Below are positions 1,491-31,202 of a DNA stretch of 47,452 nucleotides, piece by piece. This DNA comes from Patescibacteria group bacterium (GTDB taxonomy: Bacteria > Patescibacteriota > Patescibacteriia > SG8-24). The stretch is from the NCBI GenBank assembly GCA_028714475.1, contig JAQTNC010000006.1, positions 1-47,452 on the forward strand. The letters are read 5' to 3'. The notes under the pieces were generated by a model. The model was not told the origin of the DNA. It saw only the letters and a program-made list of their open reading frames with translations, and searched no databases. The stretch's first letter is position 1; every line of letters begins with the position of its first letter. The translations under genes were made by a program, and so were the position numbers.

Positions 1491-1898
1491 CTACGCGCCA
1501 GTCGTCCCCGTGCCCGTCAGGATGGCGTTAATCACGAAGTTGGTGATGGCGTAGGCCGTGAGGAGAAGCACCAAGCCGATAACGGCGTTCTTGATGATGT
1601 CCTTGGCCTCGTTGACATCTTCCTCATTGCCGCGCGCCAACATCCACTTGAAACCGGCCCAGATGATGAGCACCACGAGCACGATGCCCAAGAGGGTGAT
1701 GATCTGGTTGATGAACTTGCCGATCACGACCGGCAATTCGGTCGTGACCAAACCCGAGCTGGTACCAACCTTTTCGAGCTGAGTGCGCGGGTCGGCGTAG
1801 GTACTGGCCATGACCGGGCTCACGAAGGAGAGCGTGGCCAAGGAGCCGACGGCGACAGCGGTCTTCCGCCGGGCGGCCTTGAGGATGGAATTAGTCAT
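1491..1898 (-). CDS. T4SS pilin-like (VirB2/TrbC-like) two-TM protein, paralog 1
   Basis: Signal peptide, TM, WAGFKWMLARGNEEDVNEAKDIIKNAVIGL motif, second TM. Confidence 0.8.
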   Translation of the reverse strand: MTNSILKAARRKTAVAVGSLATLSFVSPVMASTYADPRTQLEKVGTSSGLVTTELPVVIGKFINQIITLLGIVLVVLIIWAGFKWMLARGNEEDVNEAKDIIKNAVIGLVLLLTAYAITNFVINAILTGTGTTGA

Positions 1899-1925
1899 AG
1901 GATGCGTAAATTAACGATTTTATAG

Positions 1926-2387
1926 TCAACTATTAATTGGGACTTCAACGTCGGTTTCTCCGGGTTCGCCTGCAGCCGGGACGCTTGGCTGAACCGTACC
2001 CGTGCCCAGCAGGACCGTATCAATAACATAGGACGTTATCGAGTAAGCCGCAAGGACGATGGCGAGGCCGATGACGGCGTTCCGGATGAGCCCCTTGGCC
2101 TCGTTGATGTTTTCTTCGCTGTCGCCAGCGGTCATCCAGCGGAAGCCGCTGTAAACCATGATGGCAACGAAGATGACGCCAATGATGGCGATGAGCTGCT
2201 GAATGAGCTTGGCAACGATCAGGCCGAGGCCGCCGGAAACGGCGGTACCCTTGAGCCCAGCCACGCCGGCTGTCGTGTCCAAGCCGGTTTCAACCGCCAG
2301 CACAGGGGCAACGAAGAAAGCCGCGGACATGAGGAGCGTCACCGCGAAGGCAACCAGGAGCGTTTTGTTTTTTGACTGTTTCTCCAT
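1926..2387 (-). CDS. T4SS pilin-like protein, paralog 2
   Basis: YSGFRWMTAGDSEENINEAKGLIRNAVIGLAIVLAAYSI shared with neighbours. Confidence 0.8.
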   Translation of the reverse strand: MEKQSKNKTLLVAFAVTLLMSAAFFVAPVLAVETGLDTTAGVAGLKGTAVSGGLGLIVAKLIQQLIAIIGVIFVAIMVYSGFRWMTAGDSEENINEAKGLIRNAVIGLAIVLAAYSITSYVIDTVLLGTGTVQPSVPAAGEPGETDVEVPINS

Positions 2388-2485
2388 AATTTCGGGTGTC
2401 TCCCGTCCCGAGGACCGACCGTCTCCTCTCGGTCGATCCCCGATCCGGGAAGAATCGGGGCAAAGCTTTGAGCTAAACGACGCGA

Positions 2486-2872
2486 CTAATTCGTGCCGTT
2501 AATGATCGAGTTGATGACGAATTCGGCGATGGCGTAAGCCGTCAAAATGATGACGAGGCCGATGACGCCGGCGACGATGAGCTTCTTGGCTTCGTTCACG
2601 CCTTCTTCGTTGCCCATGGCGGTCATCCACTTGAAGCCGCCGAACAGGATGATACAGACGGCGACAATGCCGAGGAGGCCCATGAAGGCCCGGATGATGC
2701 CGGAAACGGTCGTGCGCACGTCCTGCGTGCCGAGGCCGATCGCGGTCGCGTAATTGAGGCCGAGATCCGGACCGGTGTCGCCGGACACGGCGGCCAGGGC
2801 GACTAACGGCAGAACCGTTGCTCCTGCGGTAAGAGCGCTCGCGGCAATCAATTTAAGGGTTTTCTTAGTCAT
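2486..2872 (-). CDS. T4SS pilin-like protein, paralog 3
   Basis: FGGFKWMTAMGNEEGVNEAKKLIVAGVIGLVIILTAYAI. Confidence 0.8.
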   Translation of the reverse strand: MTKKTLKLIAASALTAGATVLPLVALAAVSGDTGPDLGLNYATAIGLGTQDVRTTVSGIIRAFMGLLGIVAVCIILFGGFKWMTAMGNEEGVNEAKKLIVAGVIGLVIILTAYAIAEFVINSIINGTN

Positions 2873-3020
2873 GTTGGTTCACCTCCTTTCGCTAATTTTA
2901 GCCAGATATCCACACAATGAACGGTTAACCTTAATTTTACCTGATTTTTGAGGAAAAAGGAACGGCCTCGTTGCCTTTTTATTCTGTGCGGTCAACTCCT
3001 GTAAGAATAATTCGGAACCC

Positions 3021-3099
3021 CTTCGCCCCGGCTCCCGGGCCGGGGCGGCGGCACAATAATACATTATTGTGCGCCGACTGTATCCGCTCAGGGGATATT
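3021..3099. repeat. 79 bp two-hairpin intergenic repeat, copy A
   Basis: Near-identical in inverted orientation to 14782-14860; contains GCCCCGGC-N6-GCCGGGGC and GCACAATAAT-AC-ATTATTGTGC. Confidence 0.85.
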
Positions 3100-3105
3100 G
3101 TTTTT

Positions 3106-3516
3106 TCAAGTCAGGATTTTTATCAGGGCGCTGACGGCGGCATAGGAAACGAAGATGGCAATCAATCCGATGACCGCCCAGATTAAGGTCTTTTTGGCGT
3201 CATCAACCTGTTTGACGTTGCCGCCGGCGAGCATCAACTTGGCGCCAGCATAGACAAACATGACGAGGGCGACGATCCCGGCCAGGCCGATGGCCGTCCG
3301 GATGATGTTGCCGATGACCGCCTCCGGCGTGGTGGCGCCGAGCGGCAAGGGGAGGCTGGGAAAGGGATCCTTGGTCACGCCGGGCGAGGTGGAAGAGGCG
3401 GCGGCCAAGGCGGTTGGCGCACTCACGGTCGTGACCAGCGCTACCAAGGTCAGGGCCATGAGCGCAACCGAAGCGATGGCCAAGCCGCTCGTCATCCGTC
3501 GTTTTATGTTTCGCAT
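3106..3516 (-). CDS. T4SS pilin-like protein, paralog 4
   Basis: YAGAKLMLAGGNVKQVDDAKKTLIWAVIGLIAIFVSYAA. Confidence 0.75.
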   Translation of the reverse strand: MRNIKRRMTSGLAIASVALMALTLVALVTTVSAPTALAAASSTSPGVTKDPFPSLPLPLGATTPEAVIGNIIRTAIGLAGIVALVMFVYAGAKLMLAGGNVKQVDDAKKTLIWAVIGLIAIFVSYAAVSALIKILT

Positions 3517-3528
3517 ATTCAGGAAACG

Positions 3529-4107
3529 TTAACTGGCTCCCAGCGCGCTGAAAACCAGCTTGACCAGGGCGTACGAGACGAAGACGATGACGAGGCCGAT
3601 GGACGACCAGACGAAGATGTTCTTCCCCTGGGTGACGCGCTGTTCGTTGCCGCCGGAGGTCAGCAGGATGAAGCCGCCGATGACGAACATGAGCAGGGCG
3701 ATCGATCCGGTCAGCCCGACGAAAATGTTGATGACGCGGCCGACCAGCTGCTGGATGTTCTGCACGCCGGTCAGAGGATTGGGAACCTTGAGGTCCTGGC
3801 GGTTGGGCGTGACGGTTCCGGAAGTCGCTGGCGTGCTGGCCTTGCTCGGATTGTATGGTGAGAGCGGCGGACAGACCTTGGCTGTATCTCCGCACACGCC
3901 ATCAATCGTTCCCCCCGATTCCTGACAATCGTTCTTGCACATGCATGTTCTCGCCCCGCTGCTGTCCTTGCAGATGATTTTCGCGGTGTTTTCCGCCTGT
4001 TCCTGCGCCGCCGCCGGGGTCACGATGGTCAAGACCGGCAGGAAGCCGACGGCCAGGACGACGAGGCCGATTTTCGCGTAACGACAGACGGAGATTTGGC
4101 ATTTCAT
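3529..4107 (-). CDS. T4SS pilin-like protein, paralog 5, with N-terminal Cys-rich insert
   Basis: ICKDSSGARTCMCKNDCQESGGTIDGVCGDTAKVCPP followed by two-TM pilin-like core; start chosen at MKCQ (4116 also possible). Confidence 0.7.
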   Translation of the reverse strand: MKCQISVCRYAKIGLVVLAVGFLPVLTIVTPAAAQEQAENTAKIICKDSSGARTCMCKNDCQESGGTIDGVCGDTAKVCPPLSPYNPSKASTPATSGTVTPNRQDLKVPNPLTGVQNIQQLVGRVINIFVGLTGSIALLMFVIGGFILLTSGGNEQRVTQGKNIFVWSSIGLVIVFVSYALVKLVFSALGAS

Positions 4108-4121
4108 AGGTGTCATAGTGG

Positions 4122-4787
4122 TTACCGCGCCGGGCGGCAACAGCTCATGCCTTCTTCGTTGCCATGGCACAGGCCGCCGAGACATTCGTCAGTTCCCTGG
4201 TCGCTCGTGCACCGGTAACCGGAGGTGGCCAATTCGGAACAAAGGCCGACGCACTGCATCTGACCGGTCGTCGGGTTCTGGACGACCGTACCGGCGTATT
4301 TCTGCGGCACGCCGTTGACCATCGGGGCATCGGGGTTGACCTGCGACGATTCGCATGGCGCTCCGACGATCATGCTGGCCCCTTGGCCGCCGGTCAGTTT
4401 CCGCATGCCGTACTGCAACAGGACGCTGGCGGTGAAGATAATGACGATGCCGATGACGGCGTTCTTGAGGATGGTCTTGCCGGCCTCAACCTTGCTCGAG
4501 TTGCCGGCCGCGACGACGATGGTGAATCCGCCGTAGACGAACATGAGCAGGGCGAACGAGCCGGTGACGCCGAGGATGAACTGGGCGATGTTGGCGAAGG
4601 CCTGCAGGAGGCAGTTGAGCGACGGCACCGGCGGCGCTGTGCCGGCAGGAAGTTTCGGATTGGCGCATTCCGGCACCAAGGCCAAGGCGGACGCCGCGTG
4701 CGGCATCGCGAAAGCGATCAGGCCGACGGCCAGGATGGCGAGGGCGGCAATAGCGGCGGCTTCCTTTGGTTTGACGTTTAATTTCAT
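4122..4787 (-). CDS. T4SS pilin-like protein, paralog 6, with C-terminal Cys-rich extension
   Basis: YGGFTIVVAAGNSSKVEAGKTILKNAVIGIVIIFTA core plus ~110 aa Cys-rich tail. Confidence 0.7.
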   Translation of the reverse strand: MKLNVKPKEAAAIAALAILAVGLIAFAMPHAASALALVPECANPKLPAGTAPPVPSLNCLLQAFANIAQFILGVTGSFALLMFVYGGFTIVVAAGNSSKVEAGKTILKNAVIGIVIIFTASVLLQYGMRKLTGGQGASMIVGAPCESSQVNPDAPMVNGVPQKYAGTVVQNPTTGQMQCVGLCSELATSGYRCTSDQGTDECLGGLCHGNEEGMSCCRPAR

Positions 4788-14781: not shown

Positions 14782-14860
14782 ATATTCCCTGAGCGGAATG
14801 CAGTCGGCGCACCATAATGTATTATTGCGCCGCCGCCCCGGCCCGGGAGCCGGGGCGAAG
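14782..14860. repeat. 79 bp two-hairpin intergenic repeat, copy B (inverted relative to copy A)
   Basis: Reverse complement matches 3021-3099 with only a few differences. Confidence 0.85.
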
Positions 14861-15268
14861 GGCGGCACATAAACAACGTCCGGCCGGGCGGGGTGCCCTT
14901 CTCGGCGCGCTCGCCGCTCCAGTCACGCCGCCATTCCGGCGAAAGCCGAGAACCAGACAGAAACCCGTGCTCCCGCCGGTCGGGCCCGCTTCCGTCGACA
15001 GCGCTCGCGCTGGATGCGTAATTGCGCGAGCGATTGTCTCCGGAACCGGGTCCGCCCGTCGGTCGCCCCGCTCCGCGTCACCCGCGGCTTCTACTTACAA
15101 CCATTTATTAGTAAGCGCTCGGCCTGCGGGAGCCGCCAAGCATGGCGGCTTGGCCTCGCGAAATGAAGTCATCTATTCCGCAATGTGTGCTTCGCACATC
15201 TTATATCCCCAAGATGTAGGGCTTTGATATTGTCGGCGCCATTGACATCGAAGCCGTTTTGCGGGAGT

Positions 15269-16578: not shown

Positions 16579-16964
16579 CTTGGCGACAAGGACCTACCGG
16601 TCGCCCTGATAATATAACTTCCTTGCGGAAAACTCGTCGTCCTTACGCGAGGCCAGGCCGCCATGCCTGGCGGCCCCCGCAGGCCGAGCGCATATTTTCT
16701 AATAGTTTGGGTTGGGTGGCGCGGAGGCCGCCGGAACCAGCGGCACCTTGGGGATTCCGTAGAAGCCGCCCGCGCGAAGCGACAGCCGGATCGCGCGAGC
16801 CCGCAGGCGCAGCGGGGCCGGCGGAGCGGGAGCGCGAAGGCGGCGACACAGGAATCCCCTGGTGACGCGGTCCGGCGGCCGGAGCGTCAAGATGGAATGC
16901 CCTTCGACTCCCCCGCACCACTCGCTTCGCTCGGGTGCAGGGTCGCTCAGGGAATATATTATAA

Positions 16965-16997: not shown

Positions 16998-17087
16998 TGG
17001 CGGAGAGGGTGAGATTCGAACTCACGGTACCTTTGCAGGTACAACGGTTTTCGAGACCGTCTCTTTAGACCACTCAGACACCTCTCC
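16998..17087 (-). tRNA. tRNA-Ser(CGA), CCA encoded
   Basis: GGAGAGG acceptor, loop CTCGAAA (anticodon CGA), long variable arm, GTTCGAATC T-arm, CCTCTCCGCCA 3' end. Confidence 0.95.
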
Positions 17088-25261: not shown

Positions 25262-26314
25262 TTAGTCGGCTTCTTCTTGTCCGTCCGCCGGGCGCGACGG
25301 AGGCTGTAAGTCAAGGTGACGGTATGCATGCTCGGTCACGACGCGGCCGCGCGGGGTGCGGGCGATAAAACCGAGCTGAATGAGGAACGGCTCATGGACG
25401 AGCTCGATGGTCTCGACTTCCTCGGAGGTCGCGGCGGCGATGGTCTGCAGGCCGACCGGCCCGCCGCTGAACTTGCCGATGATGGTGGTAAGGATGTGGC
25501 GGTCGGTGCGGTCGAGGCCGTGCATGTCGATCTCGAGCATTTTCAAGGCCGCTTCGGCGGACGCGGCATCAATCACGCCGTCCGCGCGCACGTCAGCGTA
25601 GTCGCGGACGCGCTTGAGCAAGCGGTTGGCGATGCGCGGCGTGCCGCGGGCACGGCTGGCGATGATGGCGGCCGCGTCATCCGGCAAATCCACTTTGAGA
25701 AGGCGCGCACTGCGGCGCAGGACGGCCGCCAACTCATCCGGCGCGTAGTATTCGAAATGATAGGTCGCGCCGAAGCGGTCGCGGAGCGGCGCGGAAATGA
25801 GTGAGAGCCGCGTCGTCGCGCCGATGAGGGTGAAACGCGGCAGGTCAAGGCGCACGGTGCGCGCCGATGGCCCCTTGCCGATGACGATGTCGAGGGCAAA
25901 CTCCTCCATCGCCGGGTAGAGTACCTCCTCGACAATCTTGTTGAGGCGGTGAATTTCGTCCACGAACAGAATGTCGCCCGGTTCCAAATTGGTGAGAATG
26001 GAGGCGATGTCGCCGACGCGCTCGAGCGCTGGACCGGAGGTGGTGCGGATGCGCACGCCCATCTCCTCGGCGATGATGTGCGCGAGGGTAGTCTTGCCGA
26101 GGCCGGGCGAGCCGTAGAGCATGACGTGCTCGATGGGCTCATTGCGGCGACGCGCGGCCTCGAGAAGGATGCCGAGGTTCTCCCGCAGTTTCGCCTGGCC
26201 GACGAACTCATGAAGGCGCTTCGGCCGCAGCGAAACGTCAAAGGCCTGCTCGTCATGTTCGACGTGCGGTTCCAGCAGATTTTCGGCTTCGTTAAGCGGT
26301 TCGTTGGGAGCCAT
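25262..26314 (-). CDS. ruvB: Holliday junction DNA helicase RuvB
   Basis: [59 protein letters not shown]. Confidence 0.97.
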
Positions 26315-26382
26315 AGGTACACCTCCATCTTAGCCTAAACTGGCGGAATTGGACAGGTATGGGCGATGACGCAAAACAAAAA

Positions 26383-26409
26383 AGGCCGCCCAAGTAAGCA
26401 GGGTGGCCT
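26383..26409 (-). terminator. terminator-like hairpin for CxC protein 1
   Basis: AGGCCGCCC-N9-GGGTGGCCT (one G-T) with T-tract on minus strand. Confidence 0.55.
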
Positions 26410-26463: not shown

Positions 26464-26850
26464 TCACGGACTCGGACGGCGCGAACAGCTCGCGCGGGGC
26501 CGATCTCTCTGCCAGCAGTCGCAGTTCCTGATTTCGTCGTCAGCACGTCTGGAGGAGCGCTTCTCAGACGAACAGTCACAGAACGCGATCCTGTCGCCGG
26601 CTTCCTCCACGATGACGCGATACACGTCTTCCCCGGAGAAAACGCCGATCGTCCTCACGACCTTGACGTCACTTGGGTTGCCATCAGCGGAGACGTTCAG
26701 GTGCTTCATGGCCACGACCCGCGCAGCTGACTCCAGGCGACTCTGGATTTGAGACCGTTCGTCTCCCAGATACCACGTCATGGCCACAAATGCCGCCAAA
26801 GACAGCACGCCCACCAACAACCGGAAGGGGCGAGAATTTACTATACGCAT
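26464..26850 (-). CDS. CxC...CxCW small membrane-anchored protein, paralog 1
   Basis: N-term TM; ...IAFCDCSSEKRSSRRADDEIRNCDCWQRD; GGAGG SD. Confidence 0.65.
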   Translation of the reverse strand: MRIVNSRPFRLLVGVLSLAAFVAMTWYLGDERSQIQSRLESAARVVAMKHLNVSADGNPSDVKVVRTIGVFSGEDVYRVIVEEAGDRIAFCDCSSEKRSSRRADDEIRNCDCWQRDRPRASCSRRPSP

Positions 26851-26895
26851 GCGCTCCTCCTTTCGTTCCTGAATCTCTTGTTGAGCGCTAAGGAC

Positions 26896-26923
26896 AGCTT
26901 AGCCATCTTGAGAACAATGTCAA
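26896..26923 (-). promoter_or_regulatory. promoter TTGACA-N16-TAAGCT
   Basis: Upstream of CxC protein 1. Confidence 0.55.
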
Positions 26924-26965
26924 GCCCGACCAACCGGATGGGCTCTAATCCCATGAAAACACAAA

Positions 26966-26988
26966 GCCACCGTCCGGAGAACGGTGGC
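26966..26988 (-). terminator. terminator-like hairpin for CxC protein 2
   Basis: GCCACCGT-N7-ACGGTGGC then TTTGTGTTTT on minus strand. Confidence 0.65.
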
Positions 26989-27022
26989 GCGGGCCGCGAT
27001 GACGGTCCGGCAAGAATGCCGA

Positions 27023-27349
27023 TCACTCGTCTCCGCAGGCGCAGATTTCGTCGGGCTGGGCCAAGACCTTGGCGTCGCAAAGGCAAACGACGTGAACGCG
27101 ACGGCCGCGCCCCTCGGCGGACGGCTGGTTGGCGGCGAAGTCGACACGAACGACGGCCGGCTTGCCTTCGGGAAGAAACGTCTTGACGCCTTGAGCGACG
27201 AGATCGGTATAGCCGACGAACAGCAACTCCGCTTGGGCGCGGTCGAGTGCCGCGAGCTCATTCGAGTTGCCGCTGGACCTGTGTTTGAGGGCGTAGAAGA
27301 GCAAGGCAGCGGCAATGAGGGAAAGGACAGTGAGTGCTCGGTATTTCAT
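27023..27349 (-). CDS. CxC...CxC small membrane-anchored protein, paralog 2
   Basis: TM; VGYTDLVAQGVKTF; VVCLCDAKVLAQPDEICACGDE; AGGAGG SD. Confidence 0.65.
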   Translation of the reverse strand: MKYRALTVLSLIAAALLFYALKHRSSGNSNELAALDRAQAELLFVGYTDLVAQGVKTFLPEGKPAVVRVDFAANQPSAEGRGRRVHVVCLCDAKVLAQPDEICACGDE

Positions 27350-27379
27350 GTAGAATCCTCCTAGACAAACCGACAGCCA

Positions 27380-27408
27380 AGCTAATCATTGTTTCCGGCG
27401 GCTGTCAA
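27380..27408 (-). promoter_or_regulatory. promoter TTGACA-N17-TTAGCT
   Basis: Upstream of CxC protein 2. Confidence 0.55.
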
Positions 27409-27522
27409 GGGCCATCAACGTGAATGAGGATTCTTCGGCCTGGCGCCTCGGGGGTGCTTGATGGAAACAAACAAAAAGCCGGTCGGAAGCCCGACGCGGC
27501 ATGATTTGCCAGCGGGATCGAA

Positions 27523-27951
27523 TCACTCGACCCGTTCCCAACAGGCACAGTTGGCCAGAGGATTGTCCACGTCCGGCTCACAACAGTCGCAAACCAAGGT
27601 GACTCGGCTTGAGCCGGGAATTGGCTGTCGCACGCTCGCGAAAACGCGGTAATCGGTGGCGCCACAGAGGTGGTTAGGAATGACCTCGCTGCCGATGTTC
27701 ACCAGATCGGTGTAACCGGCCTCCTGCATCTGTCGCGCGGCCTTGTTCCTGGCGAAAAGCTCCAGCCGCTCATCCTTGGCTTCTTGGTCGGCGACGCCGG
27801 AAATGTTGCGCAGGAACATGGCGACGCCAGCTAAACCGATGAGGGCCAACGCGGCCCAGAACAGCCATCGAACCAACGTCATCCCGCCTTTCGGCTGCTT
27901 GTCCTTGCCCTGTTGGCCCGGTACCGCTTCCCGACCCGTATGAAGTGCCAT
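27523..27951 (-). CDS. CxC...CxCW small membrane-anchored protein, paralog 3
   Basis: TM; ARQMQEAGYTDLVNIGSEV; LVCDCCEPDVDNPLANCACWERVE. Confidence 0.7.
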   Translation of the reverse strand: MALHTGREAVPGQQGKDKQPKGGMTLVRWLFWAALALIGLAGVAMFLRNISGVADQEAKDERLELFARNKAARQMQEAGYTDLVNIGSEVIPNHLCGATDYRVFASVRQPIPGSSRVTLVCDCCEPDVDNPLANCACWERVE

Positions 27952-27985
27952 GACTCATGCTCCTTGCTGGATGTTTGGCGGTTTT

Positions 27986-28013
27986 AGGTTAACAGAACCC
28001 CTAACCAAGTCAA
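27986..28013 (-). promoter_or_regulatory. promoter TTGACT-N16-TAACCT
   Basis: Upstream of CxC protein 3. Confidence 0.45.
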
Positions 28014-28111
28014 GACAACCGAAGCTACAATTATGCGACGAGATTCCAGGATGATAAACAAAAGCCGGCCGGAGAACCCGACGCGGCAGAGCCGTGGCGA
28101 AACCACGGGAA

Positions 28112-28504
28112 CTATTTGATCACTCTTTCCCAACAAGCACACGGCTTGGTGTCGTCGGACAACTCGGCCGTGAGGCAGTCGCACTCTGTCACCGCGCCTT
28201 CGCTGACCACACGATAGCTTTGCGGGTGACTCTGACACGGCGGATAAACAAACACCCTGCCCGAAGCGAACTCGTAGCCCGCCTGCTGCATCTGCCGCCT
28301 TGCCTTGGTTACAGCGGCCTTCGACTGAAGGTCGCTGGAGACAGACGACCAAATACCGCTGACGATGACGAAAATCATGACGGCCACCGTAGCTACGAAA
28401 AGAATTCCGATGATTTTCGCAGCCCCCATCAGCCAAGATAGCGGCCTGATGTTGCTTTCGCTTGGCCAAGGTTCAACCGACCGATTACGAAGACTAGTGA
28501 ACAT
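28112..28504 (-). CDS. CxC...CxCW small membrane-anchored protein, paralog 4
   Basis: TM; ARRQMQQAGYEFASGRV; TECDCLTAELSDDTKPCACWERVIK. Confidence 0.7.
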   Translation of the reverse strand: MFTSLRNRSVEPWPSESNIRPLSWLMGAAKIIGILFVATVAVMIFVIVSGIWSSVSSDLQSKAAVTKARRQMQQAGYEFASGRVFVYPPCQSHPQSYRVVSEGAVTECDCLTAELSDDTKPCACWERVIK

Positions 28505-28543
28505 GGCGACTCCTCTCCCCCGCCGACTGCGGAAGACGGGGTA

Positions 28544-28573
28544 TTCTTAGCAACATCGGGAAGAACAATCAAG
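28544..28573 (-). promoter_or_regulatory. promoter-like TTGATT-N18-TAAGAA
   Basis: Upstream of CxC protein 4; palindrome TTATCGA-caa-TCGATAA at 28581-28597. Confidence 0.4.
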
Positions 28574-28715
28574 GCCTCATTATCGACAATCGATAATCCC
28601 TGGCAAAACGCCCAAAAACAAAACGCCGGCCGGAAGGGTCCGGGACGCGGCGTCAGGCTGGTCTCGCGCCGGCAGGGGTCACATGATGCGGGGAGAAAGG
28701 GGATCACCCCTGTAT

Positions 28716-29081
28716 TCACCACACATGCAACTGGCGGCGGTGGTAATGCTGCATTTGCAGTTCATTGCACGTGCAACTGGCGGCGGTGGTAATGCTGCAT
28801 TTGCAGTTCATTTTGGCCGTGCGGGTATAGCCGCCCTCGCCCAAGGACCGCACTGTCTTGGTCACCGGAACCAGGACGAAGACCGTTACCGAGTTGGTGT
28901 CTGGGTCGATGGAGCCAAAGGCCTTGGGCTCCTCATTGAGGGTGTAGCCTTTGCTTTGGAGCTGCTGCTTCACCTCGGTCGTGGCGGCAGCCTCCTCCCG
29001 GCTGAAGTCCGATTTGGGGTTGCGACAGCCGATGGCCAAGAAACCGGCGACCAATAAAAGAACGGACAATCTGAATTTCAT
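28716..29081 (-). CDS. CxC...CxC lipoprotein, paralog 5
   Basis: Lipobox FLAIGC; MNCKCSITTAASCTCNEL. Confidence 0.65.
   Translation of the reverse strand: MKFRLSVLLLVAGFLAIGCRNPKSDFSREEAAATTEVKQQLQSKGYTLNEEPKAFGSIDPDTNSVTVFVLVPVTKTVRSLGEGGYTRTAKMNCKCSITTAASCTCNELQMQHYHRRQLHVW
28726..28812. repeat. tandem duplication, 41 bp identical, period 46 bp
   Basis: TGCAACTGGCGGCGGTGGTAATGCTGCATTTGCAGTTCATT at 28726 and 28772. Confidence 0.95.
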
Positions 29082-29111: not shown

Positions 29112-29140
29112 ACATTAGCAGGTTACCTCAAAAACGTCAA
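29112..29140 (-). promoter_or_regulatory. promoter TTGACG-N17-TAATGT
   Basis: Upstream of CxC protein 5. Confidence 0.5.
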
Positions 29141-29222: not shown

Positions 29223-31202
29223 ATGGACTTGATACTGAACAAAACCAAGGCTTGGCTGGAACGACACGGCGCGCGGCTGACGCTGGCGGCGATGCTTTTG
29301 TATGTCGTCGTGCTATCCGCCGCTTGCCTCCGCAAGTACGCCCTGCTCGGCTACAACGGTATTGACCTTGCCTACTTCAACCAGGCCTTCTGGAACTTCC
29401 TGCACGGCCGGTGGTTCACCGTTTCCATCCACCCGCACCTCACGTTGGGCGACCACGCGGAACTGCTGATGCCGCTGCTTGTCCCGTTCTATGCGCTCTG
29501 GTCCGACCCGCGGATGTTGCTCGTGTTGCAGACGGTCGCCTTGGCTGCCGCCGCTTGGCCGCTTTACCACTTGGCGCGGCGTCGGCTCGGCCGCACGGCT
29601 GACGGCCAATACGCCTGGCTCGCCCCGCTCGTCGCGCTCGCCTACCTCGCCTGCCCGTTCACGCAGAGCGCCAACCTCTACGAGTTCCATATCCTGCCGT
29701 TCGCTCTGCCGTTCCTGTTCTGGATGCTGCTCGAATACAATCGTGGCCGACGAGGATGGTTTATTGTGGCCGCCGTCTTGGCACTCATGGCACGAGAGGA
29801 CGTCGCGCTCGTCGTGGCGGCCGTCGGACTGTTTGCCTGGATTGAACGTCGCGAGAAATTCTGGCGCTGGGCGCCGGCGCTCCTAGCCGCGTTCTGGTTC
29901 ATCGCGGACATGAAGCTCATCAGCCTGTTCGCCCCCGCCCACGACTACAAGTTCGCCGTCTATTATTCCTGGCTCGGCGCGACGCCGACGGAGGCGGTCG
30001 CAAATGCCGTCCTTCATCCGCTCCGCCTCATCGCCCATGTCTTCTCGCTCGGCAATCTGGAAATGTTGCTCGGCCTCGGCGTCGTCGTCGGCTTTTTGCC
30101 AATCTTCGCGCCAGCCGCGCTCGTGCTCGCGGTTGCGCCGCTCGCCGAATTCGTCCTTGGTGCTGCGGGCGGCGGCGAACTGGTCTTGCGCACGCATTAC
30201 GTGACGCTTTTCCTACCAGCGATTTTTCTGGCAGCCGCCGACGGTTTGCCGCGCTTCCTGAAATGGACCGAGGGGCGTTTCAAAAGCAAAACCGAACGCG
30301 ACGCGTCTCGATTGGCCTTAGTCGCAACCGTAATCGGAGCCGTTCTGATGCTGGAGCCACTGACAACTGGCGTCGTAAAACTCGTCAGCCCCGACGAGAC
30401 AACCCTCTCTCGCGCCAGCTCCGCACGCGCTTTGGCCAAACTCGTTCCGCCCGATGCCTCCATCGCCGCGAGTGACGCCCTCCTGCCGCTGTTCTCCTCG
30501 CGGGAGAACCTGTACGCCCTGCATTACCAGTTCCTCGGCGTGACGCAATTTGCGCTCTCGCCTTACGCCGTGCCAACGGACACGCGCTTCGTCGCCGCTG
30601 ACGGGGCTGATCTCATCAATTACGAAAACCGTTTCCTGACGACTGACTGGACGAAAGACCATTACGCCGGCGGGTATGCCAGGCTCCGTTCCGTCGCCGG
30701 CCAGCCAACCTATTGGCGCGACGGTTTCCTCCTTTTCGACCGCCTCGGCACAAAACCGACGGGCCTGTCGGTGCAGCCCACAGACACGATTTTTGCCGAC
30801 GGTTTGCTGCTCATCGGCGCCTCGGCCACGATTGAGGCGGATGAGAGCGGCCGTCAGAACCTGCGCCTCGATACGGTTTGGGCCGCGGAAAACAAAGTGA
30901 AGGAAGATTGGCTCATGCGCTTGATTGTCCGCGATGCCGATAACAAAACCGTCTTCGATCGCGCTTACCCGTTCGCGAACGGCCTCGTCGCCTCCTCCGA
31001 ACTGGCGCCGTCCTCCCCCGCCATCGCCGGCGAGATTATCCAACCACTCCCCCGCCTCGCCCCTGGTAAATACCTGCCCGTCATTTCCCTCGAACGCCAA
31101 ACGGCGCATCTGGAACTCGACGCTCTCGGCACGTCGCAACGCATCGTCACTGAATCAAAAAACGGCGGGGAGTTTGTCCTGCCGGCTTTCGATGCCCATT
31201 AG
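29223..31202 (+). CDS. DUF2079 family multi-TM membrane protein
   Basis: YNGIDLAYFNQAFWNFLHGRWFTVSIHPHLTLGDHAELLMPLLVPFYALW. Confidence 0.85.
   Translation: MDLILNKTKAWLERHGARLTLAAMLLYVVVLSAACLRKYALLGYNGIDLAYFNQAFWNFLHGRWFTVSIHPHLTLGDHAELLMPLLVPFYALWSDPRMLLVLQTVALAAAAWPLYHLARRRLGRTADGQYAWLAPLVALAYLACPFTQSANLYEFHILPFALPFLFWMLLEYNRGRRGWFIVAAVLALMAREDVALVVAAVGLFAWIERREKFWRWAPALLAAFWFIADMKLISLFAPAHDYKFAVYYSWLGATPTEAVANAVLHPLRLIAHVFSLGNLEMLLGLGVVVGFLPIFAPAALVLAVAPLAEFVLGAAGGGELVLRTHYVTLFLPAIFLAAADGLPRFLKWTEGRFKSKTERDASRLALVATVIGAVLMLEPLTTGVVKLVSPDETTLSRASSARALAKLVPPDASIAASDALLPLFSSRENLYALHYQFLGVTQFALSPYAVPTDTRFVAADGADLINYENRFLTTDWTKDHYAGGYARLRSVAGQPTYWRDGFLLFDRLGTKPTGLSVQPTDTIFADGLLLIGASATIEADESGRQNLRLDTVWAAENKVKEDWLMRLIVRDADNKTVFDRAYPFANGLVASSELAPSSPAIAGEIIQPLPRLAPGKYLPVISLERQTAHLELDALGTSQRIVTESKNGGEFVLPAFDAH

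Follow-up and report, generated by a model that had tools for sequence, protein, structure and literature searches.

Type IV pilins and the pseudopilins of type II secretion systems (T2SS; XcpV/XcpW and EpsI/EpsJ) have a long N-terminal membrane helix that leads into an antiparallel sheet, and the class III prepilin signal consists of G followed by F or M with E at +5. Cystatin-like/PepSY proteins of the YpmB (TseB) type are held by one anchor at the N-terminus, from which a helix and a beta-meander domain face outward. Small membrane-associated paralogs in tandem are also known for the T4SS_pilin family (PF18895), five genes of which lie on the minus strand at 1494-4787 of the window (the whole 47,452-nt stretch of DNA analyzed here, contig C6 of a 1.41-Mb patescibacterial genome that comprises 43 contigs). 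Here, we describe a second array of five small genes (p1 to p5) in the same window, which shares observed or predicted features with each of these systems. Unlike type IV pilins and pseudopilins, the gene products are without a class III prepilin signal, p1 is a putative lipoprotein, and the structural matches are non-significant. In contrast to YpmB, they have no Pfam match, and the paired CxC motifs that they carry are no defining feature of YpmB-type proteins, to which the matches are likewise non-significant. PF18895, on the other hand, is a recognized family, and a relation between it and the CxC proteins was not detected.

The array consists of five consecutive minus-strand genes of 108-142 codons each at 26464-29081, placed between the run that ruvB opens on the minus strand and a DUF2079 gene on the plus strand (Table 1). 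All five ORFs of the original prediction were present, with the CxC tails described for them. Codon usage gave positive support to p1, p3, and p4 and slightly negative values for p2 and p5; most of the competing overlapping ORFs scored below the array genes, and one antisense ORF was level with p5. Synteny with several relatives extends from ruvB into the genes that follow, which indicates that the contig is native. Upstream of ruvB, different genes were found in all seven relatives read, so the array occupies a variable site. Many sister genomes are approximately 1 Mb in size, which, like the small genome itself and its T4SS_pilin genes, is compatible with a member of Patescibacteria. Elsewhere in the window, a 65-nt inverted repeat (3019-3083 and 14798-14862, 95% complementary, 11.7 kb apart) has both copies in frames containing MYYCAAAPAREPGRR and is possibly a dispersed repeat, and an 85-nt inverted repeat (15099-15183 and 16623-16707, 79% complementary) lies near a tRNA-Ser gene (16998-17087).

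Table 1 Features of the array and its flanks, in window positions.
Feature	Position	Strand	Description
p1	28716..29081	-	121 aa; hydrophobic N-terminal stretch that ends in relaxed lipobox LAIGC; NCKC-x7-CTC
p2	28112..28504	-	130 aa; TM 31-49; ECDC-x11-CACWERVIK
p3	27523..27951	-	142 aa; TM about 29-47; VCDC-x11-CACWERVE; fold modelled, mean pLDDT 75, with higher values over most of outer domain
p4	27023..27349	-	108 aa; TM 3-21; VCLC-x11-CACGDE
p5	26464..26850	-	128 aa; TM 11-29; FCDC-x16-CDCWQRD and further tail; fold modelled, mean pLDDT 66
46-nt tandem duplication	28715..28806	-	copies 91% identical; 3' end of p1
Promoter-like site of p1	29112..29140	-	TTGACG-N17-TAATGT
Promoter-like site of p2	28543..28572	-	TTGATT...GCTAAGAAT; poorer fit, read from sequence
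Promoter-like site of p3	27986..28013	-	TTGACT-N16-TAACCT
Promoter-like site of p4	27380..27408	-	TTGACA-N17-TTAGCT
Promoter-like site of p5	26896..26923	-	TTGACA-N16-TAAGCT
Terminator-like hairpin of p1	28616..28650	-	sequence resembles p2 and p3 hairpins
Terminator-like hairpin of p2	28056..28088	-	33 nt, 73% identity to p3 hairpin
Terminator-like hairpin of p3	27469..27501	-	downstream of p3
Terminator-like hairpin of p4	26956..26988	-	10 bp stem, T-rich tail
Terminator-like hairpin of p5	26377..26408	-	downstream of p5
ruvB	25262..26314	-	flanks array, outside it; opens conserved run of ruvB, small membrane protein and bPH
DUF2079 membrane protein gene	29223..31202	+	flanks array, outside it

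An AGGAG-type Shine-Dalgarno sequence precedes each of the five starts, and a hairpin with a T-rich tail lies 3' of every array gene. Sites of the form TTGAC-N(16-18)-TAnnnT occur seven times in the window against a Markov expectation of 0.8, and four of the seven precede array genes. Since a promoter-like site, a Shine-Dalgarno sequence, and a terminator accompany every gene, the array appears to comprise five single-gene units, and a polycistronic operon was rejected in view of the separate promoter-like sites and terminator-like hairpins. The likeness among the terminators of p1, p2, and p3, together with the presence of signals at each gene, points to duplication of whole units; judged from the DNA, the array thus looks like five monocistronic units that were apparently copied together with their signals. 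The hairpins between genes were also considered as marks of integron-like cassettes, an explanation that was set aside because they precede T runs and look like terminators. One further change inside the array is the 46-nt duplication at the 3' end of p1; no other strong tandem repeat of at least 40 nt was found in the window. As 46 cannot be divided by three, what follows the second CxC of p1 is encoded out of frame by the second repeat copy, and the CxC pair is intact despite the duplication. We count this change in favor of a family that duplicates and diverges.

The feature common to the five products is a C-x-C-x(7-16)-C-x-C signature near the C-terminus, in which none of the four cysteines varies across the alignment of the five. 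No conservation is seen in the residues that separate or surround the motifs, and p1, p2, p4, and p5 are only 22-32% identical to p3. When each protein was shuffled, the probability of a CxC-x(5-18)-CxC pattern in the last 50 residues was 6e-5 to 3.4e-4 per protein, and among the 352 stop-to-stop frames of at least 70 codons in the window, a C-terminal CxC pair is nearly confined to these five. The middle segment QMQxAGY, said to be present in most of them, is clearly recognizable in p2 and p3; p1 (QLQSKGY) and p4 (LLFVGY) have part of it, and p5 lacks it. Whether an HMM unites the five, the test that the original prediction had set for itself, was assessed by leaving out one protein at a time and searching for it with the profile of the other four against 576 decoys. 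This joined p2 to p5, which outscored all 576 decoys (E 1.2e-11 for p2, 4e-12 for p3, 9.7e-8 for p4, and 3.2e-7 for p5), but p1 fell short of significance (E 0.0048) and ranked under two decoys. The failure of p1 would fit a family made up of p2 to p5 alone, with p1 an unrelated protein that resembles them by chance. Against this, p1 shares the CxC pair, the array position, and a similar terminator and promoter-like site, and its alignment to p4 outscored 300 of 300 shuffles (z 7.1); the value for p1 and p2 was z 4.9. We therefore regard a chance resemblance as unlikely and the membership of p1 in the family as probable, not proven, on the strength of these comparisons.

A single N-terminal TM, with greater positive charge before it than after it, was recognized in p2 to p5. 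p1 (MKFRLSVLLLVAGFLAIGC) instead has a signal-peptide-like hydrophobic stretch that ends at a relaxed lipobox, AIGC, judged by eye and from hydropathy. The TM with its positive N-terminal flank, or the lipobox, predicts that the C-terminal domain faces outward, and the proteins, earlier described as secreted, are better called membrane-anchored with a predicted outward domain. The fold was modelled by AlphaFold for p3 and p5, from one five-row alignment, so that the two models are not independent. They share the order of elements, namely a helix, three strands, a short helix, and a strand, with p5 the less confident. In the p3 model, the helix spans residues 26-77 and the strands residues 81-92, 99-108, 116-124, and 136-140, with block-mean pLDDT of 73-91 over residues 61-140. 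Both models place one CxC on strand 3 and the second where strand 4 begins. This architecture is fairly well supported, and the fold and its outward orientation are predictions. Neither model obtained a significant Foldseek match.

No family match for the five was obtained in Pfam, NCBIfam, PHROGs, or PADLOC; the best Pfam and NCBIfam scores were far under the cut-offs, and the best PHROG match (E 0.0016) was to an unnamed family and covered the TM and helix of p2 (residues 21-74). A PDB sequence search yielded no match, p3 had none among phage and plasmid records, and a literature search found nothing relevant. Credible relatives were likewise lacking in the 11 further genomes from this order, which include none from the host's own genus, and in samples of the class and phylum. 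Pattern-seeded scans of 85,488 GTDB genomes and IMG/VR returned chance matches only, and the DNA signature was present in one of 384 genomes of the class, namely the host genome, where it occurs twice; such scans detect relatives with short conserved stretches, and very diverged ones can escape them. Weak hits to single proteins in relatives (L004-L008) or to the profile in the order, class, and phylum (L019, L020, L079, and L080) were read and showed no short ORF with both an anchor and a tail of paired CxC motifs; five further profile hits (L014-L018; E 0.04-0.3) were taken as chance. The match to L021, in IMG/VR, was limited to the surroundings of KAARQMQ, and its frame encodes no cysteine. 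The DNA signature was hit 24 times in GTDB and three times in IMG/VR, in frames that were very short, implausible, or lacking an anchor. As far as these searches reach, the proteins appear to form an undescribed family, and the statement that they belong to no named family stands within the four family libraries, PDB, and the pattern-seeded scans.

What the four cysteines do bears on how these proteins are read. CxC pairs commonly serve as metal ligands, too, and the tip of the outer domain may hold a Cys4 site for Zn or Cu(I), in which case the proteins would be membrane-held metal scavengers or metal-stabilized domains. The invariance of the four cysteines agrees with such a site, and so does their position, as two pairs, on strands 3 and 4 of the p3 and p5 models, as does a search of the host genome for VKOR alone, which found none, though 8 of 12 genomes of the order have matches. 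However, the domain is predicted to be extracytoplasmic in a cell that encodes DsbA-like proteins, no metal transporter or metal-responsive gene was recognized adjoining the array, and conservation is lacking in the residues that lie between the motifs or flank them. We consider metal binding possible but doubtful. The alternative to which we lean, at somewhat less than an even chance, is that these are lineage-restricted, tandem-duplicated surface proteins with a disulfide-stapled tip. Three exported Thioredoxin_4/DsbA-like proteins are encoded in the genome, two of which carry CPYC or CGPC, with CPFS in the place of CxxC in the third (L078). The VKOR result counts against disulfides, since the oxidant lacks a candidate from that search.

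Two further explanations take the fold rather than the cysteines as their guide. One takes the five as divergent type IV pilins or as pseudopilin-like subunits, for which a helix that is long and partly embedded in the membrane and an antiparallel sheet with a cysteine-closed C-terminal region would be expected, and the AlphaFold models have elements in this order. Moreover, two weak hits of the five-protein profile outside the array are pilins (L019, E 5e-4; L079, E 0.0013), although only the helix part matches, the weak Foldseek matches obtained with the p5 model (E 0.098 at best) include pseudopilins, and the genome has a prepilin peptidase gene (PF01478 match, G000:C7). Nevertheless, the N-termini, read directly, are without the cleavage motif in p1, p2, p4, and p5, and p3 has KGG-MTLVR without E5; p1 has a lipobox instead, the Foldseek matches are all non-significant, and type IV pilus genes were not recognized beside the array, all of which makes a pilin identity very unlikely. 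Cystatin or PepSY-like extracytoplasmic domains that modulate proteases or cell-wall enzymes, as in YpmB/TseB, are suggested by the weak Foldseek list of the p3 model, which is dominated by cystatin folds (affimers, potato multicystatin, and a designed cystatin fold; E 0.4-2.2), and by a YpmB-MreC model that ranks fourth for p5 (E 0.48). Genes for a SpoIID-domain protein and a D,D-carboxypeptidase lie approximately 3-6 kb from the array, but the same wall genes adjoin ruvB in relatives without it. Given also that no match was significant and that neither PepSY nor TseB gave a Pfam match up to E 1, we regard this explanation as improbable.

Under the disulfide-stapled reading, a whole unit of promoter, gene, and terminator would have been duplicated in tandem beside the ruvB run, after which the copies diverged, apparently fast, as we infer from their low identity. 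An N-terminal TM helix would anchor p2 to p5 in the cytoplasmic membrane, and lipid would anchor p1. The helix is predicted to extend outward and pack against a four-stranded antiparallel sheet, the outer end of which would be locked by the CxC motifs of strands 3 and 4, most likely through two cross-strand disulfides formed by the exported DsbA-like oxidoreductases of the genome. The loop that joins the motifs would vary freely, as would most of the domain surface, and this is what one expects of a module for contact or binding whose partners change, possibly a neighboring cell, a phage, or a substrate; separate promoters would allow the copies to be expressed singly. We infer the disulfides and the contact function, the latter from location, variability, and copy number. 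A bolder version, in which a Cys4 extracellular module without known relative, its tip switched by redox or metal, exists in five independently expressed, fast-diverging copies that mediate host-cell or phage contact in a streamlined, probably symbiotic bacterium, seems quite improbable to us.

Orphan surface families are common, and on present evidence the array appears to encode a further such family, specific to its lineage and unusual in its cysteine signature, not a new kind of system. If it is merely another orphan membrane family, its value lies mainly in annotation. The Cys4 signature offers a means to search for relatives that are missed by ordinary annotation. If the proteins are a family of variable surface modules, the array would offer a compact, testable case of promoter-gene-terminator units duplicated in tandem, and it would mark a site of lineage-specific change of the cell surface in a bacterium with a small genome.
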